Positions 1,037 to 31,823 of a stretch of DNA of 31,823 bases are shown in pieces. The DNA is from Saccoglossus kowalevskii (Eukaryota > Hemichordata > Enteropneusta > Harrimaniidae): the NCBI RefSeq assembly GCF_000003605.2, contig NW_003147307.1, positions 1 through 31,823 on the forward strand. The letters are read 5' to 3'. Within the stretch, counting starts at the first letter, position 1; every line of letters begins with the position of its first letter. The position numbers and the translations under genes were made by a program. The notes below the pieces were generated by a model. It did no database searches. It saw only the letters and a list, made by a program, of their open reading frames with translations, and had not been told where the DNA came from.

Positions 1037-1041
1037 TTCGG

Positions 1042-6768: not shown

Positions 6769-7004
6769 TTTGACCTTTCAGACACATCCCTGATAATCAC
6801 GTGGTCATACCAATTGCTGCAACCAATTGACCAATCGCTTGTCTACTCTGCCAAATCTTAAGAGTGTTATTAGTTTCCTGGCCTGAAGTCGTGTACCAAG
6901 GAGACAATCCATATAACATTTGGAAGACCATAAATTTCAACGTATATTCTTTTGTAATGGGGATATCCCTGATTAGAGAGAGTGACATCTCTGATTAGCT
7001 TTGT

Positions 7005-10000
7005 ATGTTACCATAGTGACATCAGATACGCATTTTTGGTTCATATATGACGTTACAGTATTATTTAGGATCAACAATTTCTATGTTGATGATATGCATT
7101 ACAGAAATGTTATAATCAAATTTTATTATAATTGTGTTCAGTAGTTGAACTTCCGCACTGCTTCAACCTTTGATACACATCCCTTGAAATCACAATCGGT
7201 GGTTTACTCTAACATATCTCAGAGTTTTATTGGAGAATATGTAAGAAGTAAAGAGCGAAGGGTTTACCTCAGCTGGCAGTTTTGAGGAATAACGCTGGAG
7301 TATATGTAATGAACTACTGTGTATTTATTTAGGTCGAACGTGCTATCTCTACTGTCAAGTGAGTTGAAGTTCTCTGCAAACTATGCTCTGCCTCAGTTCG
7401 TAGCTCCCGAAGAGAGAGGTCATTATACATGCATTCGCAACATACTCGACCGTCGTATATTTTGATTGGAGCTCCCTACAACCTAATAGTTCGTTTACGT
7501 CATGAAACGATAATGTCCGCAATTGTGAGCAGGGGCAGTTAGGTGACGATGGCTTATTCAATGTTTAATATCTACTTCAGGGCATTTAAATTACCGGATT
7601 TACATATTATACTACTTATATCCGATGACACCCTTTAAGAATGTCTCGATATTCCCATCTTCTGTCGACACACGTCCAGACACCGACACAGTTTAATGTA
7701 ATATCTCACATCCGGGAGAGTCATTGACATGACAACAGTGTAATTCATTCAACAAGACGTTGACAATAATTTGTTCAAATACATGTTGTCACCTTCAAAA
7801 CACTGAGATGAAAATTATTCCCCGCTTTATAGACCCCTTGTAAATTGTAGCTTAATGGTGTTAAGAAATTAAGCCGGTGTGTGTTATCTGGTAGGGTAGG
7901 GTATGCTGTGTCAAGTGGTCATGTAATTGAAACAACACCGGGTTATTATTAGAGATGCCAGTCTGCATGGCAACTGGTAACTATGCATCATAATAGAAGC
8001 CCTTAGTCGTAAAACTGGTGAATACCTGTACCACCCCCTGCATAGAGTGGTTAAGTCTCCGGCCTTAGTTACACCAGGTGACTGTTTTGAGGAATAAAAC
8101 AAAACAAAATATCAGTATTGAATTAATATTTATTCCTTTGGATCGAACCTAGTATCTCTACAGCGTAATTGTCATCTGCCAAGTGAGTTGAAGATCCCTG
8201 AAAACTACTCTCAATTCTTCACTTTTTTCCCGAAAAAGTAAGTAAATTTCCTCGTTATATTTTCTCTAAAGTTAGTCATTATGCGCGCATTCGACACATA
8301 CTCGACGGTTGAATATTAGAGGTCCCAACAACCCAATAGTTCATTTTCAGCGTGCAACAATACTTTTTCCAATTGTGATGTGTGAACAAATGTGTATGAA
8401 CTGCATGTCAGAGGATTGACTACTGAACTTGACCATGTATATTAATAAATCGATTAGTTGTGAAACAAAATGTATGGAAACTAATAATTAAAACCAGCGG
8501 GCGAACTAAAGTTGGCTTATTCAATTCTTAATATTAATATTAGGGCATTTGAATTTCCATACTATACTTATATTCTATTCTATTAAGCTCTCTAAAAAAG
8601 TTGTATTATTCCCCGTTTTATAGATCCGTTGTAAATTGTGCCTAAATGGTATTGAGAAATAAATTCATTGTTTGTTGTCAGTTTGATAGGTAAAGTATGT
8701 TGTGTCAAATGGTCACCTAAATGAAACAACACATAAAAATAACTCTGGTTAATCATTTATAATTTTGTAGAATAGGCCTTAAAAAGAATTGCATTCTTTT
8801 ATAATGGGGCGTATCAAAATGTTGTACGTAACCTTTTGTACCTTAGGGTCATATATGCTAATTCGGTAAATCGATGTTAATGATCGGCCACCATATTGGC
8901 ATCACGTACGCACATTGGTTTACATATGACGTTACAGTATTATTTATCGGGTATTAAACAGATATCTAAAGGTATTGTTCCCAATTGTGATATGTGAACA
9001 AATTGGTATGAAATGCATGTGAAAGGATTGACTACTGAACTTGACCATGTATGTAAACGATTGGATGTGAAACAAAATGTATGGAAACTAATAATTATAA
9101 CCAGCTGGTGAACAAAAAGAGTATGGCTTATTCAATGTTTAATATCTATATTAGGGCATTTGAACTTGGATTTACATACTATAATTATATCCTATGTCAC
9201 TCTCTAAGAACGAATGTCTTGATTCCCATGTCACAGGCCCGTCCCAGACACAGTTTAATGTAATGTGTCTCACATCAGGGGGGGGGACATTAAAATGACG
9301 ACAATGTGATTCATTTAACAAGGTATTGACAATAATTTGTTTAGATACACGTTGTTATAAAATTAAACAGTAGATATCACCTTCAAAATACTGTGATATA
9401 ACATTTTTCCCTGCTTTATAGACCCCTTGTAAATTGTAGCTAAATACTGTTGGGAAATAAAGCCATTATTTGTTATCAGTTTGACAGGTAGGGTATGTTG
9501 TTTCAAAAAGTAACAGCTGGTAGTTTAGAGACTATTGATATGAGTCCTTAGTCATGAAGCTGTTGAATACCTGGACACTATTATACTGAGTTAAAGGAAG
9601 AGGAAAGATTAGCTCTCCATAGCAATTTTTAAATACTGCTGTGATCCCAGTTAGGATCTGATAGCAATCTCTCTGTAGTGGAAAAAAGAACTTGCGAGTC
9701 TACTTAGCACAGCCAAAATTTGGAAGGACTACCAGCCAGATACACCCAGTTTGGATTTGCCCTGCCTGCATGCTATACATTGTTTGTTTTTTTTAATAAA
9801 GAAATTAAAACTCTATCATCTGTACGGCAGTGAATTATTCTTGTGCTGCCCTGCAAACCACCCCTACCCTTGGCCTCAAATGGGGACCCAGTCGAGGGTG
9901 TTATATTTTCACCAAACAAAGTCCACACCAGGAAGTGAGCAGCCAGAAAACTGTTGAAACTGTTACACTCCATTGGAGTTATAAGACTGGGAAAGGAACT

Positions 10001-10395
10001 ACTATCAGATCAGTCTTACTATTAATCCCGGCTGTGGAAAAGTCCAAGAGAACCACAAGGGACGATAATTTGCATTGGAAAGAGGCGAGCATTAGGAAAA
10101 TACATTACCTTTTGTATAATAAAACATTTAAGGTAAGCTACCATGGTGACATCACGTACTAAATTATTCCCCGCTCCATAGACACCTTGTAAAATGTAGC
10201 TAAATGCTGTTGAGAAATACAGCCATCGTTATTAGTTTGACAGGTAGGGTATGACATTTCAAAAAGTCATAAAAATAAAACAACACCTGGTAATTTAGAG
10301 GCTATTGATATGGTTCCTTCGTCATGAAACTGTTGAATACCCGGACACTATCATAGTGAGTTAAAACAGGGACTGAGAAGTAGGGTTAGCTATCC
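7005..10395 (+). repeat. Degenerate tandem array of roughly 0.6-0.9 kb units (copy A)
   Basis: Ordered landmarks recur. ATTATTCCCCGCTTTATAGA-like boxes followed by TTGTAAATTGTAGC and TTGACAGGTAGGGTATG occur at about 7814, 8605, 9401 and 10163. GGCTTATTCAAT followed by AGGGCATTT occurs at 7551, 8514 and 9124. ATGACGTTACAGTATTATTTA occurs at 7045 and 8928. ATTGACTACTGAACTTGACCATGTAT occurs at 8416 and 9026. Units vary in length because of internal deletions. The open frames inside (for example 9751-10162) are short and unrecognised. Confidence 0.8.
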
Positions 10396-10419
10396 ATACT
10401 AAAGAAATGTTCTTCAGGA

Positions 10420-11350
10420 GACATGGAGAGAACTAATTCAGTTGAACATGAAATAAATACCAGTATGGCCCCTATTAACAACAACCCTGAGGGAAGGCAA
10501 TTTGACAAGAGAAGCCGATATACTTGTTTTGTAGAAATTATGGAATATTAAGGATGCATACCCAGTAGCCAGATGACTCATTTCACTGTTTAGCTGGAGA
10601 TAAATGTTTCTCAACACTGGGCTTGGTCAGTGTATATTGGCAAGGGGAATTGGACACAGATACCAAGCAAAAATCCATGTTTGTGACACGAAGTGGTATT
10701 CATGGATTGCCATGCCCTTTAGACTTTATAATGTATCCTCTACATTTGAAAGGTTGAAAGTGTAATGGCTGGACTACAGTGCGAAATTATGCTGTTTACT
10801 TGGATGACATAATATACAGCAAACTGAAACTGGTGTTGGACCAGCTAAGAAAATCAGGATTAAAATTAAAACCGAAAAAGTGTCAGTAGTTTAAACAAGA
10901 GGTAGGTGATGGACGAGGGAGTATAAACGAACCAAGCAGAAGTCGAAGTGATAAGGGATTGGCCTGTCCATAACATAAGTTCAAAGTTTCATCGGTGTCA
11001 CTTTGTATTATCGTACATAGCAAATTTCACCAAAATAGTGAGCCCATTGCATATATTGATGGAAAAGGGGTAGAATGTTTGTCTGGAATGATGATTGTGA
11101 AGTGTCATTCAAAGAAAATGTTGATGACAGCCTCCAGGGGGAGGGCAATTATGTGTTGGATACTGACGCGAATGATCTTCGGATTGGTAATTCAAGGTAA
11201 GGTCTCAAACACAAGGAAACAGTTATCAGTTATCGCATATGGTAGCGTAACTAGGAAAGAGTTACGATGTGTTATCAAAGTTGGAAAACAGGGTACATAG
11301 ATTCAAGGGCCAGAGTTTATTGGTTGGACTTGGATCGTACTACCACAGTG
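10420..11350 (+). pseudogene. Ty3/Gypsy-type pol relic: reverse transcriptase and RNase H (copy A)
   Basis: Frames broken by several stops spell out the typical order of a Ty3/Gypsy pol: a start resembling VEHEI, an RT region with DAYPVAR, STLGLVS.YWQGELD and KSMFVTRSG, then the catalytic YLDD box at 10797-10808 followed by KPKKC-like and DWPV-like segments. An RNase H start (VLDTDAND near 11155) and VIAYGS follow. Internal stops, for example after the EIMEY segment and in the post-YLDD region, show it is dead. No integrase, gag or LTR was recognised, so this is a fragment of an old endogenous retroelement. Confidence 0.85.
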
Positions 11351-11505
11351 GACAATTTAAACTTCATAAAAGGAATGGATGAGGGCAACTTGATTTGATA
11401 TGATGGCAACAAAAATACAATTGAATTACGCTTGCCAACTAACACTGGCAACTTTGCCAAATAGTATTTACCAATGCAGCCGAGTACTTGTATGTTTCGC
11501 CAAAC

Positions 11506-11555
11506 NNNNNNNNNNNNNNNNNNNNNNNNNNNNNNNNNNNNNNNNNNNNNNNNNN
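11506..11555. other. Assembly gap (50 Ns)
   Basis: Exactly 50 Ns lie between the W end of copy A and the X start of copy B. A round number like this usually marks an unknown-size join, so the real distance and content are not known. Confidence 0.98.
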
Positions 11556-11556
11556 G

Positions 11557-12157
11557 ACTCAGTATGTGAAGCGAGTCGTTTCATTTACTCTAGATAAAAT
11601 TATATTTGGTTCAGACACAAATATACTGATAGCAGCTGTGTATATACCGCCGAAAAAATCCCCAACGTACGTATTGAACTATTAATTGTATTGTATAATT
11701 AGAATTGTTTTTAATTGATGCGTATTCTAGTCATGGTGAATTAAATTCAAATAATGTTGGTGAAGTTAACGCTAACACAGGAAATTGTAGTGATTCTTTT
11801 TTACAGCCGGGTTACGAAGCTGATGTTTTTGATTGGCATAGAAATTCAAAGAAAAAAGGTGTTAATTCATATGGTAAACAACTGTTGAAACTAAGTAAAA
11901 AATTCGATTTGCATATTGCGGTCGTTTTCCTGGTGATAAAAGCGGGTTTCGCAAACAATGGCGTTAGTGTTGTTGACTGTGGTATCTTATCTTCAGAGTT
12001 GCTTCATATTGTTGATGACTTTGGCACAATTCCAGAAGCCACACCTGCACACAATTTGGTGACGCCACAAAATACATGTACTTCTATCGGGGTCGTTTGT
12101 TCGGTATATACGAATTGGTATATACAAATTACAATAAAGATACTTAAGACATTACCA
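11557..12157 (+). pseudogene. Endonuclease-domain (EEP) relic of a non-LTR retrotransposon, copy B
   Basis: This is the more complete view of the relic. An upstream frame reads LDKIIFGSDTNILIAAVYIPP (11600-11660), typical of the middle of an APE-type endonuclease domain, and stops. A second frame starting near 11705 contains LIDAYSSHGELN, where a GDFN-like catalytic motif is expected, then DVFDWHRNS and GVNSYGKQLLKLSKKFDLHI. After another frame change near 11918 come VSVVDCGILSSELLH and VDDFGTIPEATPAHN. The active-site motifs are degraded and at least two frame breaks are needed, so it is dead. The same breaks occur in copies A and C. Confidence 0.65.
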
Positions 12158-12581
12158 ATAAAGTGGAACAAATTAAGTGGCAATAAAATGATGTTAATAA
12201 CGGTGATAAATTCTAGCTTGTTAAGCAGAACGATCAGTCGGGTCACGCCAAGGGTCACGCACTTCAATGCAATATGATGGGGTTGAAACTGGGTCATGGC
12301 GTGACACGCGAGGAAGACATTTTTCAACACTCAATAAAAAAAGTCCCGACTTTGCCAGTCTATAGATGAACACTCAACAGAACCAAAGAAATCGTTTTGG
12401 CTTTCCTATTCAACATTTCCTAATCGGGACATTGAAGTAGTTTGCAAAATATATCAAAAAAATAAATAAATCATAAAGTAACTTATAAATTAAACTGAGC
12501 GTTGCGCAAGTTTAGTTAGCTATTAAAAAAGTATAACGATAGTGTGTCCTATATTACGAAAACAATTCTGGAAACAGACGA

Positions 12582-12668
12582 GTGTCCTCTGTAGTGTAGT
12601 GTAGTGTAGTGTAGTGTTGATTTACACTGACCGAGGCATCGTTGATCGGGGGTTCGAAATCAGCTTTT
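12582..12668 (+). repeat. tRNA-derived SINE-like head with GTAGT repeat (5 units), copy B
   Basis: Same structure as in copy A with the B-box-like GGTTCGAAATC at 12651-12661. The GTAGT run has five units (12591-12615). Confidence 0.35.
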
Positions 12669-12908
12669 TTCCGAAAGTTTCACAATTAAATTAAATATCT
12701 TATGATAGCAGTATATTTATTTCATTATTTTATCAACTGGTGAAGTTAATCAAACGTGAGTTCTTTATACCTAAATGAGTCTAAAGTATTTGTTGAGATA
12801 TTTATTCTCTTAATTTAACAACTTGTAATGGTGGAAATTAATTAAACGAGAGTTGTTTTCACCAAAATAAGTCTCAAATATTTGAGACATTTATTCATAT
12901 TTATTCGG

Positions 12909-13740
12909 CCACCGTAGAGAGTAGCATTGTACTCCGCCGGGATCGAACACGCCGAACAACGGAGGTTCCGCTCCTTAACAAAGAAAATCCAACTCCGTCC
13001 ACATCGGCTGATGCAAGTACGAGACACATTTCTTCAAGGTTTCAATCCTTCTAACTGGCCTACCGCTGATGCATGCTTGGACATTCTGTTACCTCCCAAC
13101 ACGTTCAGGAAAGGATTCAACGCTATGCTGCTCACAATAGCGATGACATCATATATCACCGAATTGTTACCCCCATAAGATAAACATTGTAATCACCCAC
13201 TACTGGTTCACATCTCATTGTTTATATCATTGTAGTTACAGTGCTCGCTGTTTCTACGTAACTCATATCTAACTGCATTTTTGTAGAGGGAGGTGGTGTA
13301 AGGGTAGCTGAATGTACAGGTTACATGGGTAAAAAATGGCATTTCACGTTAAAATAAAATGAATATTCCATTTACAGTAAAAAAAAATAGGATTTTTAAA
13401 CTTTACAGATAACACAGTTTCCTAAGTACATTTTACATTTTTATAATATTTTTAATAATTTGAGTTTAAAAATCAAAATTGGAAATTACGTACGAATTAC
13501 GACATTGGATTTGGAATAAAAATAATATCTTTGTACAAAATACGGACGAATAAACTAGCTGATTATTTTACACCTTGCTCATGTATACGAATTTACGTGT
13601 TTTATTTATTTAAATAACATTATTACGAAAATAAAAACAATTGATCGCAACTTACGAAAATACCACTTGCCGACCCGCTTTGTAGTTGCAGTCGCGCTGC
13701 TTCTACGTGCAAAGCCACTTCTACCAACTTATTCTTGTTC
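12909..13740 (+). repeat. Chimeric Y/Y' repeat in copy B
   Basis: The left part matches Y: AACAAAGAAAATCC, ACCGCTGATG, TTACCTCCC, and the 45-base block is absent. The right part matches Y': GCATTTTTGTAG, ATATTCC, the long A-run, AAATTACGTAC and GACCCGCTTTG. The switch lies between about 13114 and 13277, with one Y-type base (GGGAGGTGG) just beyond. X lies on its left and W on its right, so it joins the outer flanks of the Y-Z-Y' arrangement. Confidence 0.9.
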
Positions 13741-14128
13741 ATGAGTGTAGAGCTAGAATCACGAAGATTGTCTAACTTGTAGTTGCAGTCACGCTGCTTA
13801 TACCTCCATTTACCAATTCTAACAATATCATTTGGGGGCTGGTATATATTTTTTTGAACAATGTCGTTTTTTATGTTGTAATTTCAGTTGGATATAATTT
13901 CACTTTGGTAGGTCACCGTGTCATCACACAGTGTGTGTATCGCCTATTGTTATGTTCGCTGTTTTTCTTGTGTAGTGCTGCTTAGGTGGGACACGGTGAG
14001 GCTCCCTTATGCCAATAAAGTATTTTGAACTGTAACTTGAAGTGTTTGCGTCGTAAATATTATGAAACTGCCTGAATTACCGATTGTGAAACACAAAAAC
14101 GATACGATTGAATTGGACATGTGTACTA

Positions 14129-14365
14129 AATGTTCGTAAGCTTCCACAATTATAGCTTAAATTGTCTAGACTAAGTGCAGAATTAATATCTGCCTTGAAG
14201 AATACTAGTAATTAGGAAGAGTACCGCTTGTTGACGGAACAAGATCAATGCACTATGTAACACTATGCACCTCTAACTCCAGGGTGTGAAGACATGCGAG
14301 GGAGGCCATGTGCTAGCAACCTTTGATCTCAACTTGCAGATTTTATAATGCTTGTAGTGGCAAAT
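14129..14365 (+). repeat. Repeat V, left copy in copy B
   Basis: Undeleted form of the V repeat. Together with 16088-16318 it flanks the transposase-relic segment in direct orientation. Confidence 0.8.
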
Positions 14366-14639
14366 GCCGTTTACTACAAGTACCCACTCGGTGATAAACA
14401 ATGCGCAGAGGCCAGTTGTGTATAAACAAGACACCAAAAGTACCACTAATCAGGGCAACAAAGAAAGCCGCAACCCCCATTACTCGTGGAAACGACAATT
14501 CGGTAACATCAGTCCACAGTCCATTTGCATTGCGATAACAGAGTCGAATATATTCCATGCGACCAATGTACCTTATTACCTGTCGTAGCCGTGCTTTGAG
14601 GCCACAGCAACCCATCCGTATCAAGTCCACGGAATTCAC
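14343..14639 (-). pseudogene. Possible membrane-protein-like fragment on minus strand (copy B)
   Basis: Identical peptide to the copy A frame at 4793-5089; same doubts apply. The C-terminal end of the frame runs into repeat V, so at least that part is not native coding sequence. Confidence 0.2.
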
Positions 14640-15092
14640 GTCGATTGGTGTAATCTCTCCTCTCCACAGTAAAAATAATGAATGATGAGTTCAAGTTCGT
14701 CATCACAAGCTCGTTTTGACAGCGCCATATTTCTAAACTACGAAAGTTACTGCAACAACACGTGTCAGGCAATAAGAAAGTTTTTCTTAACAAAGTTCTT
14801 TTCCGGTTCTTATTTGCATATGTCCATTATATCACAGGGATATTCCCATTATTCTGTTTCCCACATAAACTTTCGATATGTCATTCACAATTCTTCTTTT
14901 GATTGATACGTGTGTGATCTTTTCCAAGTTTACATCCATAAGCAGATTGGGTTTTTATAAACGTAATGATGTGTATGGTGTATATATCAAACTTACACCA
15001 CTTTTGCATAATGGTTTGGTCCCAATGCTCGTGTCTGGGCGAAATATAAAGAAATACGTCATACCGATTATTCTGATTTGCAATACTAGACA

Positions 15093-15896
15093 ATGAACCG
15101 TGAATCGGTCAGAGGAAAGTCGTATGTTTTGGGAACTTCTATCAGTGCAGACCACAGAAAATCTACGACTGGAGAAATACCTCGCGGAAAAGTTACTGAA
15201 GTTGCCGACAAGACCAAACAAGACCGAAGTTTAAGGAAATTGTGGGTGCAGTTTTGGAATGATGGTTAATTTAGAACCAAAGTTCAACGCAGGTGGTATG
15301 CCTCGAAAGCTTACTGAGCAAGATATTAGGTTCATGGAAATGATGAAAATGGAAACTTTCTCTATCACATTGCGAGAAATACAACGTCGCCTTTTAGAAA
15401 ATGCCAACGTCCACATTTCAATATCACAGATATCGTATTATGTGAAACACAGACTGGGAGATAAGGACTGGGCGCGTAAAAATTTGACAAAATTGACAAT
15501 AGAGCGGTTTACGGACAGAAACATGATGTACACCCAGGCGTATTTAGATTTGTTGTCAGAATGCGATTCCTATACTGTAAAATTCATGGACGAATCTGGA
15601 ATCCAAATGTCAGCAGTAGGACACAAAACACATGGTCACTCGGGAAAAGGTGAAAGTTGTCTGGAAATCCAACGTTATGCAAAGTCACCGAACAAAACTT
15701 TATATTTATTAGTTGGTATAAATGGCGTATGTTAACACAATCTATGGTGCGTCAAATACTACTACATATTTACAGTTTTTTTGACGAAGCCGTGCATGCA
15801 ACTGATGCAAACGGATTACCAGCTACTCAACCTGGTGATATTATTATTGTAGACAATTTTCCCATTCATCATCATGAAGGAGAACGCGCATTGCAG
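15093..15896 (+). pseudogene. IS630-Tc1-mariner-type transposase relic (copy B)
   Basis: Same relic as in copy A, offset 9550 bp, with the same frameshifts and the same truncation into repeat R. One visible amino-acid difference is MPRK in place of MHRK at 15299 on, the proline version being closer to what the family usually shows. Motifs KFMDESGIQ and IIIVDNFPIHH are present. Confidence 0.85.
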
Positions 15897-15990
15897 AGGC
15901 GGCGCCACGAAATTTTGCATGGAGGTGCGAGATCTTACCAGGGGGTCCAGGGGCATGCCCCCTTAAAATTTGCTGCATTTTGAGGGGTAA
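15888..15990 (+). repeat. Repeat R fragment fused to the transposase relic (copy B)
   Basis: Identical counterpart of the fragment at 6338-6440. Confidence 0.6.
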
Positions 15991-16087
15991 ATTTTGCTGA
16001 CACAAAGGGTATCAGCTTGATTTAGAGGGGGCGACGATGCGAAAGATTTGGACATGAAATTTGCCTGGCCTGAAGTCGTGAACTAAA

Positions 16088-16318
16088 TGTTTGGAAGCTT
16101 CCACAAGTATGGCTTAAATTGCCTAGACTACGTGCAAAATTAATATCTGCCTTGACGATTAATTAGGAAGAGTACCGCTTGTTGACATAACAAGCTCAAT
16201 GCACTATCTAACACCATGCACCTCTGACTCCAGGTTGTGAAGACATGCGAGAGAAGCCATGTACTAGCAACCTCTGATCTCAACTTGTAGATTTTATAAT
16301 GCTTGTAGTAGCAAATGC
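16088..16318 (+). repeat. Repeat V, right copy in copy B
   Basis: Counterpart of 6538-6768, essentially identical. Confidence 0.8.
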
Positions 16319-16554
16319 TTTGACCTTTCAGACACATCCCTGATAATCACGTGGTCATACCAATTGTTGCAACCAATTGACCAATCGCTTGTCTACTCTG
16401 CCAAATCTTAAGAGTGTTATTAGTTTCCTGGCCTGAAGTCGTGTACCAAGGAGACAATCCATATAACATTTGAAAGACCATAAATTTCAACGTATATTCT
16501 TTTGTAATGGGGATATCCCTGATTAGAGAGAGTGACATCTCTGATTAGCTTTGT

Positions 16555-19500
16555 ATGTTACCATAGTGACATCAGATACGCATTTTTGGTTCATATATGA
16601 CGTTACAGTATTATTTAGGATCAACAATTTCTATGTTGATGATATGCGTTACAGAAATGTTATAATCAAATTTTATTATAATTGTGTTCAGTAGTTGAAC
16701 TTCCGCACTGCTTCAACCTTTGATACACATCCCTTGAAATCACAATCGGTGGTTTACTCTAACATATCTCAGAGTTTTATTGGAGAATATGTAAGAAGTA
16801 AAGAGCGAAGGGTTTACCTCAGCTGGCAGTTTTGAGGAATAACGCTGGAGTATCTGTAATGAACTACTGTGTATTTATTTAGGTCGAACGTGCTATCTCT
16901 ACTGTCAAGTGAGTTGAAGTTCTCTGCAAACTATGCTCTGCCTCAGTTCGTAGCTCCCGAAGAGAGAGGTCATTATACATGCATTCGCAACATACTCGAC
17001 CGTCGTATATTTTGATTGGAGCTCCCTACAACCTAATAGTTCGTTTACGTCATGAAACGATAATGTCCGCAATTGTGAGCAGGGGCAGTTAGGTGACGAT
17101 GGCTTATTCAATGTTTAATATCTACTTCAGGGCATTTAAATTACCGGATTTACATATTATACTACTTATATCCGATGACACCCTTTAAGAATGTCTCGAT
17201 ATTCCCATCTTCTGTCGACACACGTCCAGACACCGACACAGTTTAATGTAATATCTCACATCCGGGAGAGTCATTGACATGACAACAGTGTAATTCATTC
17301 AACAAGACGTTGACAATAATTTGTTCAAATACATGTTGTCACCTTCAAAACACTGAGATGAAAATTATTCCCCGCTTTATAGACCCCTTGTAAATTGTAG
17401 CTTAATGGTGTTGAGAAATTAAGCCGGTGTGTGTTATCTGGTAGGGTAGGGTATGCTGTGTCAAGTGGTCATGTAATTGAAACAACACCGGGTTATTATT
17501 AGAGATGCCAGTCTGCATGGCAACTGGTAACTATGCATCATAATAGAAGCCCTTAGTCGTAAAACTGGTGAATACCTGTACCACCCCCTGCATACAGTGG
17601 TTAAGTCTCCGGCCTTAGTTACACCAGGTGACTGTTTTGAGGAATAAAACAAAACAAAATATCAGTATTGAATTAATATTTATTCCTTTGGATCGAACCT
17701 AGTATCTCTACAGCGTAATTGTCATCTGCCAAGTGAGTTGAAGATCCCTGAAAACTACTCTCAATTCTTCACTTTTTTCCCGAAAAAGTAAGTAAATTTC
17801 CTCGTTATATTTTCTCTAAAGTTAGTCATTATGCGCGCATTCGACACATACTCGACGGTTGAATATTAGAGGTCCCAACAACCCAATAGTTCATTTTCAG
17901 CGTGCAACAATACTTTTTCCAATTGTGATGTGTGAACAAATGTGTATGAACTGCATGTCAGAGGATTGACTACTGAACTTGACCATGTATATTAATAAAT
18001 CGATTAGTTGTGAAACAAAATGTATGGAAACTAATAATTAAAACCAGCGGGCGAACTAAAGTTGGCTTATTCAATTCTTAATATTAATATTAGGGCATTT
18101 GAATTTCCATACTATACTTATATTCTATTCTATTAAGCTCTCTAAAAAAGTTGTATTATTCCCCGTTTTATAGATCCGTTGTAAATTGTGCCTAAATGGT
18201 ATTGAGAAATAAATTCATTGTTTGTTGTCAGTTTGATAGGTAAAGTATGTTGTGTCAAATGGTCACCTAAATGAAACAACACATAAAAATAACTCTGGTT
18301 AATCATTTATAATTTTGTAGAATAGGCCTTGAGTGCTGGTACCATGATAATTAAATTACTTGAATTGCATTCTTTTATAATGGGGCGTATCAAAATGTTG
18401 TACGTAACCTTTTGTACCTTAGGGTCATATATGCTAATTCGGTAAATCGATGTTAATGATCGGCCACCATATTGGCATCACGTACGCACATTGGTTTACA
18501 TATGACGTTACAGTATTATTTATCGGGTATTAAACAGATATCTAAAGGTATTGTTCCCAATTGTGATATGTGAACAAATTGGTATGAAATGCATGTGAAA
18601 GGATTGACTACTGAACTTGACCATGTATGTAAACGATTGGATGTGAAACAAAATGTATGGAAACTAATAATTATAACCAGCTGGTGAACAAAAAGAGTAT
18701 GACTTATTCAATGTTTAATATCTATATTAGGGCATTTGAACTTGGATTTACATACTATAATTATATCCTATGTCACTCTCTAAGAACGAATGTCTTGATT
18801 CCCATGTCACAGGCCCGTCCCAGACACAGTTTAATGTAATGTGTCTCACATCAGGGGGGGGGGACATTAAAATGACGACAATGTGATTCATTTAACAAGG
18901 TATTGACAATAATTTGTTTAGATACACGTTGTTATAAAATTAAACAGTAGATATCACCTTCAAAATACTGTGATATAACATTTTTCCCTGCTTTATAGAC
19001 CCCTTGTAAATTGTAGCTAAATACTGTTGGGAAATAAAGCCATTATTTGTTATCAGTTTGACAGGTAGGGTATGTTGTTTCAAAAAGTAACAGCTGGTAG
19101 TTTAGAGACTATTGATATGGGTCCTTAGTCATGAAGCTGTTGAATACCTGGACACTATTATACTGAGTTAAAGGAAGAGGAAAGATTAGCTCTCCATAGC
19201 AATTTTTAAATACTGCTGTGATCCCAGTTAGGATCTGATAGCAATCTCTCTGTAGTGGAAAAAAGAACTTGCGAGTCTACTTAGCACAGCCAAAATTTGG
19301 AAGGACTACCAGCCAGATACACCCAGTTTGGATTTGCCCTGCCTGCATGCTATACATTGTTTGTTTTTTTTAATAAAGAAATTAAAACTCTATCATCTGT
19401 ACGGCAGTGAATTATTCTTGTGCTGCCCTGCAAACCACCCCTACCCTTGGCCTCAAATGGGGACCCAGTCGAGGGTGTTATATTTTCACCAAACAAAGTC

Positions 19501-19972
19501 CACACCACGAAGTGAGCAGCCAGAAAACTGTTGAAACTGTTACACTCCATTGGAGTTATAAGACTGGGAAAGGAACTACTATCAGATCAGTCTTACTATT
19601 AATCCCGGCTGTGGAAAAGTCCAAGAGAACCACAAGGGACGATAATTTGCATTGGAAAGAGGCGAGCATTAGGAAAATACATTACCTTTTGTATAATAAA
19701 ACATTTAAAGTAAGCTACCATGGTGACATCACGTACTAAATTATTCCCCGCTCCATAGACACCTTGTAAAATGTAGCTAAATGCTGTTGAGAAATACAGC
19801 CATTGTTATTAGTTTGACAGGTAGGGTATGACATTTCAAAAAGTCATAAAAATAAAACAACACCTGGTAATTTAGAGGCTATTGATATGGTTCCTTCGTC
19901 ATGAAACTGTTGAATACCCGGACACTATCATAGTGAGTTAAAACAGGGACTGAGAAGTAGGGTTAGCTATCC
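16555..19972 (+). repeat. Degenerate tandem array of roughly 0.6-0.9 kb units (copy B)
   Basis: Same array as 7005-10395. It contains about 26 extra bases near 18331 (GAGTGCTGGTACC... where copy A has AAAAA), and its G-run near 18854 is 10 bases against 9 in copy A. Confidence 0.8.
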
Positions 19973-19996
19973 ATACTAAAGAAATGTTCTTCAGGA

Positions 19997-20927
19997 GACA
20001 TGGAGAGAACTAATTCAGTTGAACATGAAATAAATACCAGTATGGCCCCTATTAACAACAACCCTGAGGGAAGGCAATTTGACAAGAGAAGCCGATATAC
20101 TTGTTTTGTAGAAATTATGGAATATTAAGGATGCATACCCAGTAGCCAGATGACTCATTTCACTGTTTAGCTGGAGACAAATGTTTCTCAACACTGGGCT
20201 TGGTCAGTGTATATTGGCAAGGGGAATTGGACACAGATACCAAGCAAAAATCCATGTTTGTGACACGAAGTGGTATTCATGGATTGCCATGCCCTTTAGA
20301 CTTTATAATGTATCCTCTACATTTGAAAGGTTGAAAGTGTAATGGCTGGACTACAGTGCGAAATTATGCTGTTTACTTGGATGACATAATATACAGCAAA
20401 CTGAAACTGGTGTTGGACCAGCTAAGAAAATCAGGATTAAAATTAAAACCGAAAAAGTGTCAGTAGTTTAAACAAGAGGTAGGTGATGGACGAGGGAGTA
20501 TAAACGAACCAAGCAGAAGTCGAAGTGATAAGGGATTGGCCTGTCCATAACATAAGTTCAAAGTTTCATCGGTGTCACTTTGTATTATCGTACATAGCAA
20601 ATTTCACCAAAATAGTGAGCCCATTGCATATATTGATGGAAAAGGGGTAGAATGTTTGTCTGGAATGATGATTGTGAAGTGTCATTCAAAGAAAATGTTG
20701 ATGACAGCCTCCAGGGGGAGGGCAATTATGTGTTGGATACTGACGCGAATGATCTTCGGATTGGTAATTCAAGGTAAGGTCTCAAACACAAGGAAACAGT
20801 TATCAGTTATCGCATATGGTAGCGTAACTAGGAAAGAGTTACGATGTGTTATCAAAGTTGGAAAACAGGGTACATAGATTCAAGGGCCAGAGTTTATTGG
20901 TTGGACTTGGATCGTACTACCACAGTG
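19997..20927 (+). pseudogene. Ty3/Gypsy-type pol relic: reverse transcriptase and RNase H (copy B)
   Basis: Counterpart of the copy A relic at an offset of 9577 bp, with YLDD at 20374-20385 and the same stops. Shared lesions mean the element was inactive before the block was duplicated. Confidence 0.85.
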
Positions 20928-21083
20928 GACAATTTAAACTTCATAAAAGGAATGGATGAGGGCAACTTGATTTGATATGATGGCAACAAAAATACAATTG
21001 AATTACGCTTGCCAACTAACACTGGCAACTTTGCCAAATAGTATTTTACCAATGCAGCCGAGTACTTGTATGTTTCGCCAAAA

Positions 21084-21851: not shown

Positions 21852-21988
21852 TTAAAGCGGGAGAGTCGTCACTTGCACATGCGTCAAACAAGCGTCTACC
21901 TATGAGTCTTTGCATTTTAGCGTGTGTTGTTGTCATCACTTGGGACTCAATTTCCGTGCGTGCGCAGGTGACGACCCTCCCACTTTAA
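21852..21988 (+). mobile_element. TTAA-flanked MITE, copy 1 (129 bp)
   Basis: Flanked on both sides by TTAA (21852-21855 and 21985-21988). Terminal inverted repeats of about 28 bp: left AGCGGGAGAGTCGTCAC.., right complement AGTGGGAGGGTCGTCAC... The core shares AGCGTGTGTTGTT with copies 2 and 3. It lacks about 25 internal bases found in copy 3. A TTAA target is typical of piggyBac and Kolobok transposons; the purine-starting ends are closer to Kolobok than to the CCC start of piggyBac. This is a non-autonomous element with no coding capacity. Confidence 0.85.
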
Positions 21989-22428
21989 TGGTTCAATGAA
22001 AATGATAGTTGAAGCTGTTACTTGAATGAAAAGGAAACAAATCTTTCCCATACACCATACAGTGTTGTTTTGTTGTGTTGCATTATGGTGGAATCATAAA
22101 GAATCATATTACACGCATTATGGTTGAGATAAAGATGTATAATGTCAATAAATTAAACATAACTATTTCACTGAACATACTTGGAACATTAATTCTTCTC
22201 TAGAAAAACCTTGATTTCAATGGTTTGTGAGAAATAAAAATATTTATTGTGTATATTCTATATTTCTGGTATCACTTTGCGAAATTTGATTGGATCCGTG
22301 AAATTGTTAGTCAAATGTTCATAATCTAGCTAATTGCAAACATTCTCTCAGAAAAAGTGTACAAGACACTATGATACTCCTCCCCTATTTGATATAATAT
22401 CTCATCGTTCATATATTACATATTATTA

Positions 22429-22440: not shown

Positions 22441-23781
22441 ATGGAAGATTGTGCCATTTCTGAAGATATGCTGTTAAGTGGAGATACTCTTCCTGCGTGT
22501 CATGTTACTAAAGGACTGGTATTAGACTTGTTTCAGTTTACAAAGAAACATCAACTCAAAGAAATACATCTTCTTGGCTGGCTGTCACAGATTTCTCAAA
22601 TTCCAAGTGAAGAGCTCAGTATACGAGCTATTGTCAGCAAGATCCACAGAATCATAAAAAAATCTAAGCACTATAGTCGTGAGCAGAAAGATTTTTCTCG
22701 TTCTGAAGAGTTTGTTCTCAGAGTGCAGACGCCAGTGTCTGAACCAGATCACTCCGAAGAAGTGTCCACAGATCCGGATCATGAGTTATCCCTGTCACGG
22801 ATGAAATACAAGCAATTGGAAATACAACATGCAAAGGTCAAAAACCAAGTTGCGAAGAAACAAACAAAAATCAGTGTCTTACTGGAAGAGAGAAAACAAC
22901 TTAAACGGAAGCTTGAGAGAAGAACCAAGAAAGTGTTGTGCTTGAAGACAAAAGCTGAAGAAACAAGAGAAAGTGAAAAGAAACAACGAATGAATTATAT
23001 AAATGAAACTATGGGAGCAGTGATATATCAGCCAGGAAACATGAATTATCATATTGTTAAATTACAACAAGAAACTACAACACAGTTAGCAGCAAAGGAT
23101 GCTCTTATCCAGCAACTTACTAGTCAACTCCAGGACATGAAGAAATCTAAAACTCAAATAACCAAAGATTTGAATGACAAGATTCACAACTATGAATTTA
23201 TGATTGAGGATCTGAATAGTCAGCTGGAAGATGAGATCCATGTATATGATATGCACAGAAGGTGCTATACACCACAGCTAATGGAATGTGCCATGTCATT
23301 ACATAATCATAATGTTTCAACTGGACAGATGACTAATGTCATCAAAACGGTAATGAAATTAGCAGGGAAAACAGTACCACGCCTTCCATGTGTGAGAACC
23401 TATGACAGCATTGTTGACAGCAAGGCTGCTTTGGCACATAAACATATTGCCTCAACATTTGTTGAAAAGGAGAAAAGTACACTGTATTCTGACGAAACTA
23501 GGAAATTTTCCCGCACTTACAACACATTCGTAGGTACAAGTCAAGATGGAGAGGTTTGTGTTTTAGGTTTGAGAGAGATGGTCAATAAATGTGCTAGTAC
23601 CACCTTTGACACGTTCACTGAGATCCTAGATGACATAAGTTTGGCTGGAGGGAACAGTGACACAAATGCAGGGAAGCAGTTACTTTGTAATATCCAGAAT
23701 ACCATGTCTGACAGGGCTAGTGTAAATGCATCGTTTTTCAAACTTGTTGAGAGTATAGAAAAGAAATCCTGCCCAGCATGA
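22441..23781 (+). CDS. N-terminal frame of a DDE transposase-like protein (446 codons)
   Basis: I recognise the family only as an uncharacterised, expanded group remembered from cnidarian and mollusc genomes; no symbol applies. Residues 20-95 form a helical N-terminal region (LFQFTKK..EIHLLGWLSQ..LSIRAIVSKIHRIIKK). Residues 115-270 are strongly charged and heptad-like, a probable coiled coil. A conserved-looking core follows: CAMSLHNHNVSTGQM (284-297), STLYSDETRKF (D351), LGLREM (375-380), and CNIQNTMSDRAS (D424). Two aspartates in such contexts fit the first two catalytic residues of a DDE nuclease fold, by inference. The frame has no introns and starts at the first in-frame ATG after an acceptor-like CAG. 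It stops in an ATGA overlap with the next frame, which supplies the rest of the same protein. A database search and structure prediction would settle the fold. Confidence 0.75.
   Translation: MEDCAISEDMLLSGDTLPACHVTKGLVLDLFQFTKKHQLKEIHLLGWLSQISQIPSEELSIRAIVSKIHRIIKKSKHYSREQKDFSRSEEFVLRVQTPVSEPDHSEEVSTDPDHELSLSRMKYKQLEIQHAKVKNQVAKKQTKISVLLEERKQLKRKLERRTKKVLCLKTKAEETRESEKKQRMNYINETMGAVIYQPGNMNYHIVKLQQETTTQLAAKDALIQQLTSQLQDMKKSKTQITKDLNDKIHNYEFMIEDLNSQLEDEIHVYDMHRRCYTPQLMECAMSLHNHNVSTGQMTNVIKTVMKLAGKTVPRLPCVRTYDSIVDSKAALAHKHIASTFVEKEKSTLYSDETRKFSRTYNTFVGTSQDGEVCVLGLREMVNKCASTTFDTFTEILDDISLAGGNSDTNAGKQLLCNIQNTMSDRASVNASFFKLVESIEKKSCPA
23775..23781 (+). other. Frame junction between the two halves (ATGA overlap)
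   Basis: The upstream frame ends GCA TGA and the downstream frame begins ATG AGC within the same bases. Family-like sequence runs without a gap across the junction (KLVESIEKKSCPA then SSSWELLSTEEQERYSKLNKFFCGLH), so the frames belong to one domain architecture. Confidence 0.8.
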
Positions 23782-24941
23782 GCTCATCGTGGGAGTTACT
23801 GTCAACAGAGGAGCAGGAAAGATATAGCAAACTCAATAAATTTTTTTGCGGTTTACACATCTTAGTTAACTTAGCGGATTGTGCAGTCTCCAAGATTGCA
23901 CAGTTTGAAGCAGCTTACCAGGAAGAAGACAAAGAAGATGCTGCTGAACAGGTACTGGATGGAGAAAGTGGTACCATCAGGTTGATTCGTGATGCAAGTA
24001 AATGCTTCTCCCGAGATGCTGATCTAAGCAATGGGTGCCACTCCGATTTTAAAGCATTTTGTGACACAATCAATGACAAAGTTCGGTTTGTTAGTTATAG
24101 AGGCCATCGTTTCAATATTACCTTCTATTTAGCTCAGGTTTTATATTATCATCATTCAAATGTAATTAAGTTTTTAGGTGACATCTATGGTACACCAAAT
24201 GATTTACTCCGCAATGTGTATAGGCTTAGCCAAAATAACCTTTATGTAGCAGGTTGTAAGGTTCTTGGTCTCTTCTCTAAATTAGTCACTGCCCCTCTGT
24301 GGCGTCTTATTGAGGAGAACACTCACATCTTGGATATGAATGGCCATTATATGGACTTAGTGGCCTATCTGGATGAAGTAATGGAAGATGCCACTGGATT
24401 CCTAGATGGTTCAAAGTTCCCATTTGATGAAGATCTAATAAAAAAGGATGATGAATATGTTTCCCTGGTAAAGGAAAACAAAAATGTTGATAGCATTGCT
24501 GTGCGATTGGCACAGCTACTAGCTGGAGCATTTTCACAACTTATCAGAAAAGCCATGGCTGAACACCTTCCTGGTGGATCATTAATCACACCATCATCAG
24601 AACTGATTGACGACACCCAATCCACACTAGCACATAACAAATTGTCCGAGTCTGTATTTGGTAGGTTTGATCATATGCTTCGATACCGACCAAATGCTTC
24701 TACATTAACCAATGAAGCCTATATAATGTACAGTACAAACAAAACTGGTGAATGGTTGGAAAAATTACCCGCACAGAAAAAAGAGAAGCTGTTTGCCGAA
24801 AGCCGGAAAGGTGGCAGAGAATTGAGAAAGAAGTTTAGAGAAAGATGTCAAGGGATCAAAGTAAAGAAAATGGAAAATATTCGCAAAAAGCAGGAAGATA
24901 AATCAAGAGTGGAAAAGAAACGCGCCAAAAAAAAAAGATAA
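23778..24941 (+). CDS. C-terminal frame of the same DDE transposase-like protein (387 codons)
   Basis: This frame continues the protein of 22441-23781 in the -1 frame. It begins at an ATG inside ATGA (23778), but this may not be a real start. Residues 14-34 (RYSKLNKFFCGLHILVNLAD) contain CxxH (C24, H27), the position where many eukaryotic DDE transposases have a C/DxxH motif after the second aspartate. Next come GTIRLIRDASKCF (65-77), YRGHRFNI (107-114), LYVAGCKVLGL (155-165), TAPLWRLIEE (171-180), and HNKLSESVFGRFDHMLRYRPNAS (286-308), whose E291 is a candidate third acidic residue, similar to the SER.FS region of hAT-type enzymes. The tail (345-387) is lysine/arginine-rich and ends KKKR, plausibly nuclear. 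A one-base loss near 23775 would explain the split; termination-reinitiation is an alternative. Confidence 0.75.
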   Translation: MSSSWELLSTEEQERYSKLNKFFCGLHILVNLADCAVSKIAQFEAAYQEEDKEDAAEQVLDGESGTIRLIRDASKCFSRDADLSNGCHSDFKAFCDTINDKVRFVSYRGHRFNITFYLAQVLYYHHSNVIKFLGDIYGTPNDLLRNVYRLSQNNLYVAGCKVLGLFSKLVTAPLWRLIEENTHILDMNGHYMDLVAYLDEVMEDATGFLDGSKFPFDEDLIKKDDEYVSLVKENKNVDSIAVRLAQLLAGAFSQLIRKAMAEHLPGGSLITPSSELIDDTQSTLAHNKLSESVFGRFDHMLRYRPNASTLTNEAYIMYSTNKTGEWLEKLPAQKKEKLFAESRKGGRELRKKFRERCQGIKVKKMENIRKKQEDKSRVEKKRAKKKR

Positions 24942-25086: not shown

Positions 25087-25213
25087 CAAACTTGAAGCGG
25101 CTTTCCAGGAGGAGACAAAGAAGACTCTGCTGAACAGGCACTGGATGGAGGAAGTGATACCATCAGGTTGATTCGTGATGCAAGTAAATGCTTCTCCTGA
25201 GATGCTCATCTAG
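25087..25213 (+). pseudogene. Duplicated fragment of the downstream frame
   Basis: About 127 bases align with 23899-24027, inside the second frame (residues about 41-84). Nearly identical runs include GTGATGCAAGTAAATGCTTCTC and CCATCAGGTTGATTCG. It has a one-base loss after GAGACAAAGAAG and a stop where the gene has CGA (TGAGATGCT against CGAGATGCT), so it is not coding. It is bracketed by a 20-odd-base direct repeat, TAGTTGGTCTG.ATA..TATTCAG, at 25060-25087 and 25211-25233. Confidence 0.85.
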
Positions 25214-26347: not shown

Positions 26348-26507
26348 TTAAAACGGGAAAGACGTCACCTGCGCACGCGCGGGAATTTGGTCCCAAACGA
26401 TGATAACAACACACGCTAAGAACGCAAAGGCTCATGACGCCTGTTTGTAAACAATGACACGCTATGACCACCTGACGCTTGCGTAGGTGACGACTCCCCC
26501 CGCTTAA
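26348..26507 (-). mobile_element. TTAA-flanked MITE, copy 2 (152 bp), inverted
   Basis: Read on the minus strand its interior matches copies 1 and 3 (GTTTACAAACAGGCGTC, TTAGCGTGTGTTGTT). Ends are AACGGGAAAGACGTCACCTGCGCA and TGCGTAGGTGACGACTCCCCCCGC, flanked by TTAA at 26348-26351 and 26504-26507. One end has lost a base compared with the other copies. Confidence 0.85.
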
Positions 26508-27122
26508 ACTTACCTTTGTCTTAGTTTTATCATCCACTTTTTGTGTGAAAACCAACCACTTACTAACCGAATTCAATATTTAAAGGCTCAACAAATCATA
26601 ACAGCTTGATGAATTTAAGAAAGCTGTATTGCTTTTAACAATTTGGTTTATTCACTGAGCTAGAAATTTGCAAACATTTCATTGTAATAGATAAAAATGT
26701 AACATTGTTTTTTAAAACTCTGTGAACATTCAAACAGTAATAAAAATTTAAAGCTGCTGTGTCTTAATTATGATGGTCAAGTGTTACCTATTGAATGTAA
26801 GCTTTCAAAACTGTCTACCTATGACTCGTACATTATTTAACATTGATACCTTTAACCATTTCACCACACCAGTGCAACTGAGAAGTGAACTGTTTAATAT
26901 GCTACTGGGTACTGGGTAAATTTGCAAGAAAGTTGTTAGTGGCCGTGAATGTGAAAACAAAAATAATAGATGGTGGTGTGTAAAATAAACGATAAGCAGA
27001 TTATGCATTAACACAAATATATGAGCGAGATGAAATTCAACAAAAATAGAACATACTGAATAGAACAGGAATATAAATATATCGGTCAACCATGGTCGAA
27101 ATTAAACTCATGCACGTTATAT
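26508..27122. other. Non-coding region between MITE copies 2 and 3
   Basis: AT-rich, with no gene, RNA or repeat that I can support. The minus-strand frame at 26805-27089 is low-complexity hydrophobic and looks fortuitous. Confidence 0.6.
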
Positions 27123-27284
27123 TTAAAGAGGGGAGTCGTCACCTGCGCATGCGTCAGTTGACCAAAGCATGTTATTGTTTACAAACAAGCGTCTACCCAC
27201 GAGCCTTTGGGTTTTTAGCGTGTGTTGTTATCGTCGCTTGGGACTCAATTCCCGCGCTTGCGCAGGAGGCACCCCCCGCTTTAA
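27123..27284 (+). mobile_element. TTAA-flanked MITE, copy 3 (154 bp)
   Basis: Flanked by TTAA at 27123-27126 and 27281-27284. Left end AGAGGGGAGTCGTCACCTGCGCATGCG; the right end is degraded (GCGCAGGAGGCACCCCCCGCT). Same orientation as copy 1 and includes the internal GTTGACCAAAGCATG..TGTTTAC stretch missing from copy 1. A plus-strand frame at 27092-27568 runs through it and the microsatellite and is not a gene. Confidence 0.85.
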
Positions 27285-27441
27285 TATTGCTACTTAAACA
27301 TATTTGTACTATTTCGAAATTATATCGAATATATATGTTTTTCAAATTTGTTCTGCTTTCCGCGTATAATACATATTTCGAGATTGCGCAGTACGTTTAT
27401 ATTGCCACTGTACGTGATCATATTATACATTATAAACAAAT

Positions 27442-28312: not shown

Positions 28313-28913
28313 ACTCAGTATGTGAAGCGAGTCGTTTCATTTACTCTAGATAAAATTATATTTGGTTCAGACACAAATATACTGATAGCAGCTGTGTATA
28401 TACCGCCGAAAAAATCCCCAACGTACGTATTGAACTATTAATTGTATTGTATAATTAGAATTGTTTTTAATTGATGCGTATTCTAGTCATGGTGAATTAA
28501 ATTCAAATAATGTTGGTGAAGTTAACGCTAACACAGGAAATTGTAGTGATTCTTTTTTACAGCCGGGTTACGAAGCTGATGTTTTTGATTGGCATAGAAA
28601 TTCAAAGAAAAAAGGTGTTAATTCATATGGTAAACAACTGTTGAAACTAAGTAAAAAATTCGATTTGCATATTGCGGTCGTTTTCCTGGTGATAAAAGCG
28701 GGTTTCGCAAACAATGGCGTTAGTGTTGTTGACTGTGGTATCTTATCTTCAGAGTTGCTTCATATTGTTGATGACTTTGGCACAATTCCAGAAGCCACAC
28801 CTGCACACAATTTGGTGACGCCACAAAATACATGTACTTCAATCGGGGTCGTTTGTTCGGTATATACGAATTGGTATATAAAAATTACAATAAAGATACT
28901 TAAGACATTACCA
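28313..28913 (+). pseudogene. Endonuclease-domain (EEP) relic of a non-LTR retrotransposon, copy C
   Basis: The sequence is nearly identical to the copy B relic with the same frame breaks and the same PAH in place of the terminal motif. It differs by a few bases, for example a K replacing a Q in the segment after TNWYI. It sits immediately right of a repeat-R fragment, so copy C gives the only visible left flank of the duplicated block. Confidence 0.65.
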
Positions 28914-29336
28914 ATAAAGTGGAACAAATTAAGTGGCAATAAAATGATGTTAATAACGGTGATAAATTCTAGCTTGTTAAGCAGAACGATCAGTCGGGTC
29001 ACGCCAAGGGTCACGCACTTCAATGCAATATGATGGGGTTGAAACTGGGTCATGGCGTGACACGCGAGGAAGACATTTTTCAACACTCAATAAAAAAAGT
29101 CCCGACTTTGCCAGTCTATAGATGAACACTCAACAGAACCAAAGAAATCGTTTTGGCTTTCCTATTCAACATTTCCTAATCGGGACATTGAAGTAGTTTG
29201 CAAAATATATCAAAAAAATAAATAAATCATAAAGTAACTTATAAATTAAACTGAGCGTTGCGCAAGTTTAGTTAGCTATTAAAAAAGTATAACGATAGTG
29301 TGTCCTATATTACGAAAACAATTCTGGAAACAGACG

Positions 29337-29420
29337 AGTGTCCTCTGTAGTGTAGTGTAGTGTAGTGTTGATTTACACTGACCGAGGCATTGTTGATCGG
29401 GGGTTCGAAATCAGCTTTTT
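29337..29420 (+). repeat. tRNA-derived SINE-like head with GTAGT repeat (4 units), copy C
   Basis: Same structure, with the B-box-like motif at 29402-29412 and four GTAGT units (29347-29366). Confidence 0.35.
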
Positions 29421-29659
29421 TCCGAAAGTTTCACAATTAAATTAAATATCTTATGATAGCAGTATATTTATTTCATTATTTTATCAACTGGTGAAGTTAA
29501 TCAAACGTGAGTTCTTTATCCCTAAATGAGTCTAAACTATTTGTTGAGATATTTATTCTCTTAATTTAACAACTTGTAATGGTGGAAATTAATTAAACGA
29601 GAGTTGTTTTCACCAAAATAAGTCTCAAATATTTGAGACATTTATTCTTATTTATTCGG

Positions 29660-30487
29660 CCACCGTAGAGAGTAGCATTGTACTCCGCCGGGATCGAACA
29701 CGCCGAACAACGGAGGTTCCGCTCCTTAACAAAGAAAATCCAACTCCGTCCACATCGGCTGATGCAAGTACGAGACACATTTCTTCAAGGTTTCAATCCT
29801 TCTAACTGGCCTACCGCTGATGCATGCTTGGACATTCTGTTACCTCCCAACACGTTCAGGAAAGGATTCAACGCTATGCTGCTCACAATAGCGATGACAT
29901 CATATATCACCGAATTGTTACCCCCATAAGATAAACATTGTAATCACCCACTACTGGTTCACATCTCATTGTTTATATCATTGTAGTTACAGTGCTCGCT
30001 GTTTCTACGTAACTCATATCTAACTGCATTTTAGTAGAGGGAGGTGGTGTAAGGGTAGCTGAATGTACAGGTTACATGGGTAAAAAATGGCATTTCACGT
30101 TAAAATAAAATGAATATTTCATTTACAGTAAAAAATAGGATTTTTACACTTTACAGATAACACAGATTCCTAAGTACATTTTACATTTTTATAATATTTT
30201 AATAATTTGAGTTTAAAAATCAAAATTGGAAATTAGGTACGAATTACGACATTGGATTTGGAATAAAAATAATATCTTTGTACAAAATACGGACGAATAA
30301 AATAGCTGATTATTTTACACCTTGCTCATGTATACGAATTTACGTGTTTTATTTATTTAAATAACATTATTACGAAAATAAAAACAATTGATCGCAACTT
30401 ACGAAAATACCACTTGCCGATCCTCTTTGTAGTTGCGGTCGCGCTGCTTCTACGTACAGAGCTACTTCTACCAACTAATTCTTGTTC
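29660..30487 (+). repeat. Direct repeat Y, copy C
   Basis: Carries the Y-type bases throughout (GCATTTTAGTAG, ATATTTC, AAATTAGGTAC, GATCCTCTTTG), lacks the 45-base block and is followed by Z as in copy A. Confidence 0.88.
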
Positions 30488-31823
30488 CAGACAAAATTAA
30501 ACTGCTGTTGACATGGTAGGACATGAACGTAAAGATAACGTCGGTTTGTAACTAAAACCGGGAAAAAAACATTCAGTCTTCATAATTCACTCCACTTTAT
30601 TACTAGCACGTATTCTGCTGTTAATTGTATTTTTTCCGACCGTTTTACGAGTGTATTTTCTAGATTAAACGCAGCATTTACAGTTCATTCAAAGTTCAAA
30701 GTTGCGTTGGGATTACCTTGATACAGTGTAAAAATATCGGCGGGGTGATCTCTTACCAGTGCGCAACGTAGCCAAAATAAAAAGCATGATCATTTGAACA
30801 CTACTATCACAAGACTGGTAGGAGGTAATATATTTGTGGCGAAAGTATTCAAAAATCATTTTTTTGCTGCTGAGACAATTAGAGACAGTATGACCTGCCT
30901 GCCAATTTAAACAAAATCGGCCAAGACAAAAGAAATCCATTAAAAAGTTAAAAAGCCATTACTAGTGAAAAGTTACTCAAACTTTGAGGTCAATTTTTGG
31001 GGTAATGAAAAAAAACATCAAAAAAATAAATAAAAAAAATACACCCACACTCAAGCTGAGTAGAATGATCTATGTCCAGTGTGTTTAATCCTAAATACAT
31101 AGGAGGAGACACATTTGCCGAGAAGCTATTCAGTTTTATGGCAACGGTGTGCCAGAATTTTTTTTACAGATTTTAGCTACTAAAAAAACTCACAGAATAA
31201 TTAATACGTGAAGATACCGGAATCCTAGGGACCGGACTGCCAAAAGTGATTTTTAGGACAATCCTAGCGGAGCGGATCGCCAATATCATTACTCACATGA
31301 CTGTCGTCATCGTCATCGGTTAATTAGTTGAAAATCTTTTGCGGATATGCGGATAGTTCAACCCCCTTTTCGAACCACTCGCGAGGTTGGTCATTATAAT
31401 ATGACCCCTTGTCACTGAGTCGCAGATTTTTCTTTGCCTCGTCTGTCATCGACGTCTCCGCTTTCTTTTTGTTTCTCGTCATTGCATTAGTAAAATTGTG
31501 TTAGTAAACAGAATATTGGCTTTAAAAGATTTAAAAGGAAGTGGCGCAAAGTTATGATCCTATTTTACCGACGAAGTCTGACAACAATGCTGACAATGGA
31601 CGTTAGATAAACATGCATACAGATAAGGTGTTATCATTTAAACCGCTCCAAGGTTAAACATTGTGTAAATATTCACGAAACGGCAGTTGTGGTTATGTGT
31701 GTTAGCTTTTAAAACACTATTTCGATCTTTTGAAAAGTTGGAGTGATGTATCAAGGTCTAAAGTAACCGTTTTATTATTTTTTGGAAAATCTAGGAAAAA
31801 AATAATCCTTTTCGTTACCTTAA
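30488..31823 (+). repeat. Block Z, copy C, cut by window end
   Basis: Follows copy A's Z from 1870 to 3207 with few substitutions. Contains the same 39-bp-period motif pair and the same short minus-strand frame. A 75-codon minus-strand frame at 30713-30940 exists only because a stop differs between copies and looks fortuitous. Confidence 0.8.
31324..31482 (-). CDS. Possible 52-residue lysine-rich small ORF in block Z (copy C)
   Basis: Same predicted peptide as the copy A frame at 2707-2865; both nucleotide differences are silent. Function unknown, coding status uncertain. Confidence 0.25.
   Translation of the reverse strand: MTRNKKKAETSMTDEAKKNLRLSDKGSYYNDQPREWFEKGVELSAYPQKIFN

Follow-up and report, generated by a model that had tools for sequence, protein, structure and literature searches.

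Transposases of the hAT superfamily carry an RNase H-like core with two aspartates and a glutamate, a CxxH motif after the second aspartate, a helical insertion between strand 5 and the catalytic glutamate, and an 'RW' motif, and their insertions are flanked by target-site duplications (TSDs) of 8 bp. In Kat1 the CxxH motif is needed for hairpin formation (PMC4763223). The order D-D-C/DxxH-E is common to the Dada, P and Kolobok superfamilies as well: Dada elements combine a DDE triad and C/DxxH motif with TSDs of 6-7 bp, are present in oyster and target small RNA genes (PMC3706591), and Kolobok and KolobokP elements, with the same motif, are rich in bivalves. Here we describe a two-frame gene at positions 22441 to 24941 of contig NW_003147307.1 from the hemichordate Saccoglossus kowalevskii. 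It is highly probable that its two open reading frames (ORFs) are a decayed transposase gene of a cut-and-paste DNA transposon with a hAT-like core, from a large lineage that, judging by our searches, is unrecognised by the sequence models tried.

Conserved residues and predicted fold of a two-frame gene

The stretch analysed (the window) is one whole contig of 31,823 bases from a 572-Mb genome assembly in 4830 contigs, and all features described lie on its forward strand. ORF1 (22441..23781, 446 aa) contains an N-terminal domain, a coiled coil and the first half of the RNase H core with D351 and D424. ORF2 (23778..24941, 387 aa from the ATG at 23778, within a stop-to-stop frame at 23751..24941) contains the CxxH motif, the helical insertion and a catalytic-type glutamate. 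An earlier reading of the letters alone (the sequence-only reading) had placed two ORFs of one gene at these positions, and that layout stands. By tblastn, the window gene matched all 107 relatives longer than 600 aa and matched 105 of them in both frames within one protein, which indicates a frame break in one gene and not two genes; homology crosses from one frame to the other around 23751..23775.

Two further features had escaped the sequence-only reading. ORF2 ends short of the C-terminal part of the relatives, a YGLW region and, in 38 of 48, a Spindlin repeat, and a search of the window copy for a Spindlin repeat found none. Downstream, positions 25092..25212 hold a 121-base duplicate of part of ORF2, 91% identical to 23905-24026, which points to decay or rearrangement. 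Because of the frame break, the missing C-terminal part and the duplicated fragment, we regard the window copy as a probable fossil, most likely inactive. No near-identical match to it was found elsewhere in its own genome among the candidates scored.

The motifs proved to be real and not chance resemblances. Conservation was read from 140 sequences, comprising 138 of 157 proteins passing a 400-aa cut and the two window frames, with gapped rows omitted from each count. The first catalytic-type aspartate (D351 in YSDET, codon 23491..23493) is invariant in 122 of 122 rows and the second (D424 in MSDRAS, codon 23710..23712) is aspartate in 131 of 132. In the CGLH motif (23847..23858) the cysteine (codon 23847-23849) and the histidine (codon 23856-23858) each occur in 131/132, and the glutamate of SESVFG (codon 24648..24650; E291 of the ATG-started ORF2, residue 300 stop-to-stop) in 123/124. 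These positions thus do not vary freely. In an 89-member alignment the median spacing is D-72-D-45-CxxH-269-E (n=81 rows ungapped at these columns), and the distance from histidine to glutamate ranges from 258 to 283 (median 269, n=81 of 89).

The fold was read from the predicted model of a relative, P0059. As the sequence-only reading had proposed in advance as a check, the model contains an RNase H-like core with a helical insertion: the first aspartate lies on strand 1, the second just past strand 4, the CxxH motif right behind strand 5 and the glutamate on a helix after the long insertion. The best match among solved structures is Hermes, a hAT transposase. The Hermes alignment covers 342 residues, of which at least 107 must, by arithmetic on its range, fall in the insertion (model residues 511-758). 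From this topology and the Hermes superposition, the two aspartates and the glutamate are inferred to cluster in space. The insertion also carries an RFN motif (24108..24116; R 87/87, F 86/87 and N 87/87 in the 89-member alignment), a possible counterpart of the hAT 'RW' motif. Candidates for the aromatic counterpart of Hermes W319 are the phenylalanine of RFN (86/87) and W643 (85/87). In Hermes the first catalytic aspartate is D180. The residue two positions on is W182 in Hermes (PMC4763223) and threonine in 82 of 85 family members.

N-terminal to the core, an all-helical domain of 96 aa (22441..22728) is predicted with a pLDDT of 94.4; its fold matches are weak, several of them to DNA-binding domains. 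A long coiled coil follows at approximately 22810..23250, corresponding to residues 125-269 of P0059 in the model.

An element of a sister lineage

Within the S. kowalevskii genome, ORF1 matched 12 stretches and ORF2 38, selves included, with the others 22-63% identical. One sister lineage is 35-37% identical to the window protein. Its best copy, on contig C1912 (locus L011), has an uninterrupted core frame of 723 residues that retains the two aspartates, CxxH and the glutamate and runs as far as a GT..AG intron within the Spindlin repeat; the N-terminal part is in another frame. A copy on contig C379 matches it over about 6 kb, in pieces that are 83-91% identical. The sister element is ~6.07 kb long and has 14-bp terminal inverted repeats (TAGSKATAACAGAC ends); in the C1912 copy the ends are TAGCGATAACAGAC and, inverted, TAGGTATAACAGAC, which match at 12 of 14 positions. 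The copies on C2920, C379 and C3528 start within a base of the C1912 5' position. On the 3' side five other copies were matched: those on C2736 and C2920 end at the identical base and three stop earlier.

Duplications of 7 bp flank the C1912 copy (ATTGTGA) and the C379 copy (ATCATTG). When 3 bases of slack were allowed, the former was matched by 0 of 20,000 random end pairs and the latter by 8 of 20,000. A related empty site lies about 20 kb away on C379 itself, where the aligned sequence runs through the junction, lacks the element and has ATCATTG only once; this gives direct evidence that insertion duplicated 7 bp. A duplication of 8 bp with one later change is possible but less simple. The copies on C2920 and C3528 both miss L011 2630-6397, which contains almost the entire coding part upstream of the last intron, as non-autonomous derivatives do. 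The sister lineage has thus moved, and for the window copy we infer mobility from kinship.

Several observations weigh against this interpretation of the window gene. The structural match comes from the predicted model of a relative and not from the window protein, and only one sister lineage yielded termini. At C2920 both inverted repeats are present and a target duplication is absent, the C3528 copy has lost its 3' end, and a dispersed pair on C1169 and C2921 shows neither inverted repeats nor a duplication. For the C379 copy, an early end score that predates the present definition of its 3' end lacked significance (522 of 2000). When the 4 kb on either side of the window gene were scanned strictly, no inverted repeat with an exact duplication turned up, and at 12 of 13 other loci a search over 4 kb or the available length revealed no candidate termini. 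The thirteenth, on C477, gave one candidate terminus, which we took as chance.

Relatives and probable placement among cut-and-paste transposases

Protein searches at E <= 10 returned 30 matches for ORF1, 29 for ORF2 (the window's own included) and 202 for residues 60-560 of the relative P0016, the best 120 of which were considered. The nearest named relatives of the window gene are molluscan. Named mollusc hosts fall in 14 genera (Mytilus, Pecten, Ruditapes, Mya, Dreissena, Pinctada, Magallana, Crassostrea, Saccostrea, Mizuhopecten, Patella, Haliotis, Gigantopelta and Littorina), and the sponge Dysidea avara is a host outside the molluscs; a match in the fish Oryzias melastigma is weak (E 4.7e-4). 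Most named relatives are labelled uncharacterised, hypothetical or unnamed, and long members have about 930-1130 residues. A viral origin was considered and rejected, as a search of viral contigs gave 58 pattern matches, none of which was confirmed by tblastn.

Profile searches were one of the checks proposed for the sequence-only reading. A Pfam scan of 48 members showed no transposase model among the 25 of 73 families listed, a scan of 25 members selected because the coiled coil is largely or wholly missing from them none among the 25 of 41 listed, and NCBIfam on four proteins nothing relevant. Compared with the PDB by sequence, a profile built from those 25 members retrieved 17 Spindlin sequences and, beyond these, just three chains at marginal scores (KIAA1240, ATAD2B; E 0.28-0.41). 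The family shares fold and motif order with hAT and, as far as tested, no recognisable sequence. Precomputed Pfam accessions PF28160 and PF28159 are attached to members P0003 and P0072, with PF28160 absent from the local Pfam matches of P0003; these accessions may come from a newer release that covers the family.

The sequence-only reading had named no superfamily, and the Hermes match narrows the placement to a hAT-like function. Membership of hAT itself is less certain, because neither a BED finger nor a match to the hAT dimerisation model was found. It is tentatively conceivable that the lineage forms a separate cut-and-paste superfamily, sister to hAT and spread across marine invertebrates, with a novel helical DNA-binding domain, a long coiled coil and a histone-mark reader of the Spindlin repeat 2 type. 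That it is instead an ordinary, already catalogued hAT subgroup seems rather doubtful. The core, the CxxH motif and the insertion would suit such a subgroup, and Repbase text implies hAT entries with 7-bp TSDs. Against it stand the Pfam results for the 48 and the 25 members; the hAT dimerisation model PF05699, which matches at 34 places in the genome, none at a family locus, and is absent from the window ORF2; and the BED zinc finger, which was found neither in the window ORF1 nor in P0059, where the family instead has its all-helical domain and long coiled coil. The TSDs also seem to differ from the 8 bp of hAT, being 7 bp in two sister copies and absent in a third two-ended copy, with the empty site fitting 7 best. 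Two of the PF05699 matches, at C1728:986306-986509 and C4096:41573-41776, lie in open frames of 3834 and 7157 codons, some of which may be runs of N read as open.

An alternative would be that the family consists mainly of domesticated host genes, for example a chromatin-bound nuclease, with the elements that have termini as exceptions. The sequence-only reading had allowed either a transposase lineage or a domesticated derivative, and it is the lineage that gains support from the sister termini, 7-bp duplications, deletion derivatives and related empty site; domestication found no positive support. Family matches at about 25 places in the 572-Mb genome, a lower bound, with few close copies would fit host genes, as would a Spindlin-type histone reader kept in 38 of 48 relatives scanned with Pfam and the intron that splits this repeat in the C1912 copy. 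However, stops interrupt 28 of the 37 other ORF2 matches, two dispersed copies have one internal deletion in common, there are target duplications and an empty site, and the catalytic residues have been kept. A tree built on 339 columns of the ORF2 region from 42 sequences places the window copy next to a group that includes a Mytilus coruscus sequence, and the C1912 copy beside sequences of Dreissena and Mya. The two thus fall in separate clades interspersed with other species, and Pecten maximus and Mya arenaria, too, are each found at more than one position. Branch support around the window copy is weak (0.32 and 0.62), and such mixing of species is usual for transposons but is not proof. 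Overall, a mainly domesticated family appears improbable, and domestication may have occurred in other clades. Two family copies stand in tandem on contig C1166 (L033 and L034), 98% identical over 5.3 kb.

Membership in Dada, P or Kolobok, which the motif order and, for Dada, the short TSDs and oyster host would suit, is very improbable, since the top solved matches are to Hermes. In addition, Dada is reported to have no terminal inverted repeats (PMC3706591), whereas the sister element has them; Kolobok duplicates a 4-bp TTAA target, whereas the sister lineage has two different 7-bp duplications; and the THAP domain of the P superfamily was found neither in the window ORF1 nor in P0059. Least credible of all is that the two frames are a working device (programmed -1 frameshift or re-initiation): the ORF2 ATG does overlap the ORF1 stop by 4 bases, but nearly all relatives span both frames as one protein, and the window copy lacks the C-terminal part and has the duplicated fragment downstream.

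Genomic setting, proposed mechanism and significance

The contig is a tandem array with a unit of about 16.76 kb, in which 3356-11504 repeats as 12904-21082 (98.2%), 11557-13740 as 28313-30487 (98.7%) and 1-3207 as 28614-31823 (99.3%); the array may be genuine or an artefact of haplotypes or assembly. A run of N at 11506-11555 hides whether each unit carries the gene, and as it forms the junction needed for comparison, presence or absence in the array unit cannot be judged; the idea that a 7.2-kb gene-bearing segment inserted into the array was dropped for this reason. Three related palindromic elements with TTAA ends, resembling miniature inverted-repeat transposable elements, lie at 21852-21989, 26348-26506 and 27122-27285, and one of similar kind lies beside a family fragment on C203 (L024 2246-2396). 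They were rejected as termini of the gene, as each looks complete alone and the first recurs across the genome (40 scored out of 1042 first-look candidates).

In a working copy of such a transposon, the N-terminal domain would bind the element ends and the coiled coil would drive multimerisation. The DDE triad would cut at the inverted repeats, with the CxxH motif coupling nick to hairpin as in hAT enzymes, and insertion with a 7-base stagger would leave the 7-bp duplication. The Spindlin repeat would tether the enzyme to methylated histone tails. SPIN1, a Spin/Ssty repeat protein, has three such repeats, whereas the family has one strong repeat fused to a transposase core.

We found no description of a Spindlin-bearing transposase in the literature searched, and a recent catalogue entry for the family is possible. 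A survey of bivalves relied on profiles for 17 known superfamilies (PMC10294476), a design that the family could escape. Since no transposase model appeared in our Pfam and NCBIfam results, the family may sit among 'unknown' repeats or as host genes in surveys. The lineage, which spans a sponge and the 14 mollusc genera named above, contributes a hAT-like core whose N-terminus is different, and its Spindlin repeat allows the idea of chromatin-guided DNA transposition to be tested in animals. If the family is a separate superfamily, its reader would steer integration or expression to H3K4me3 chromatin, and it would represent a DNA-transposon counterpart of chromodomain integrases.
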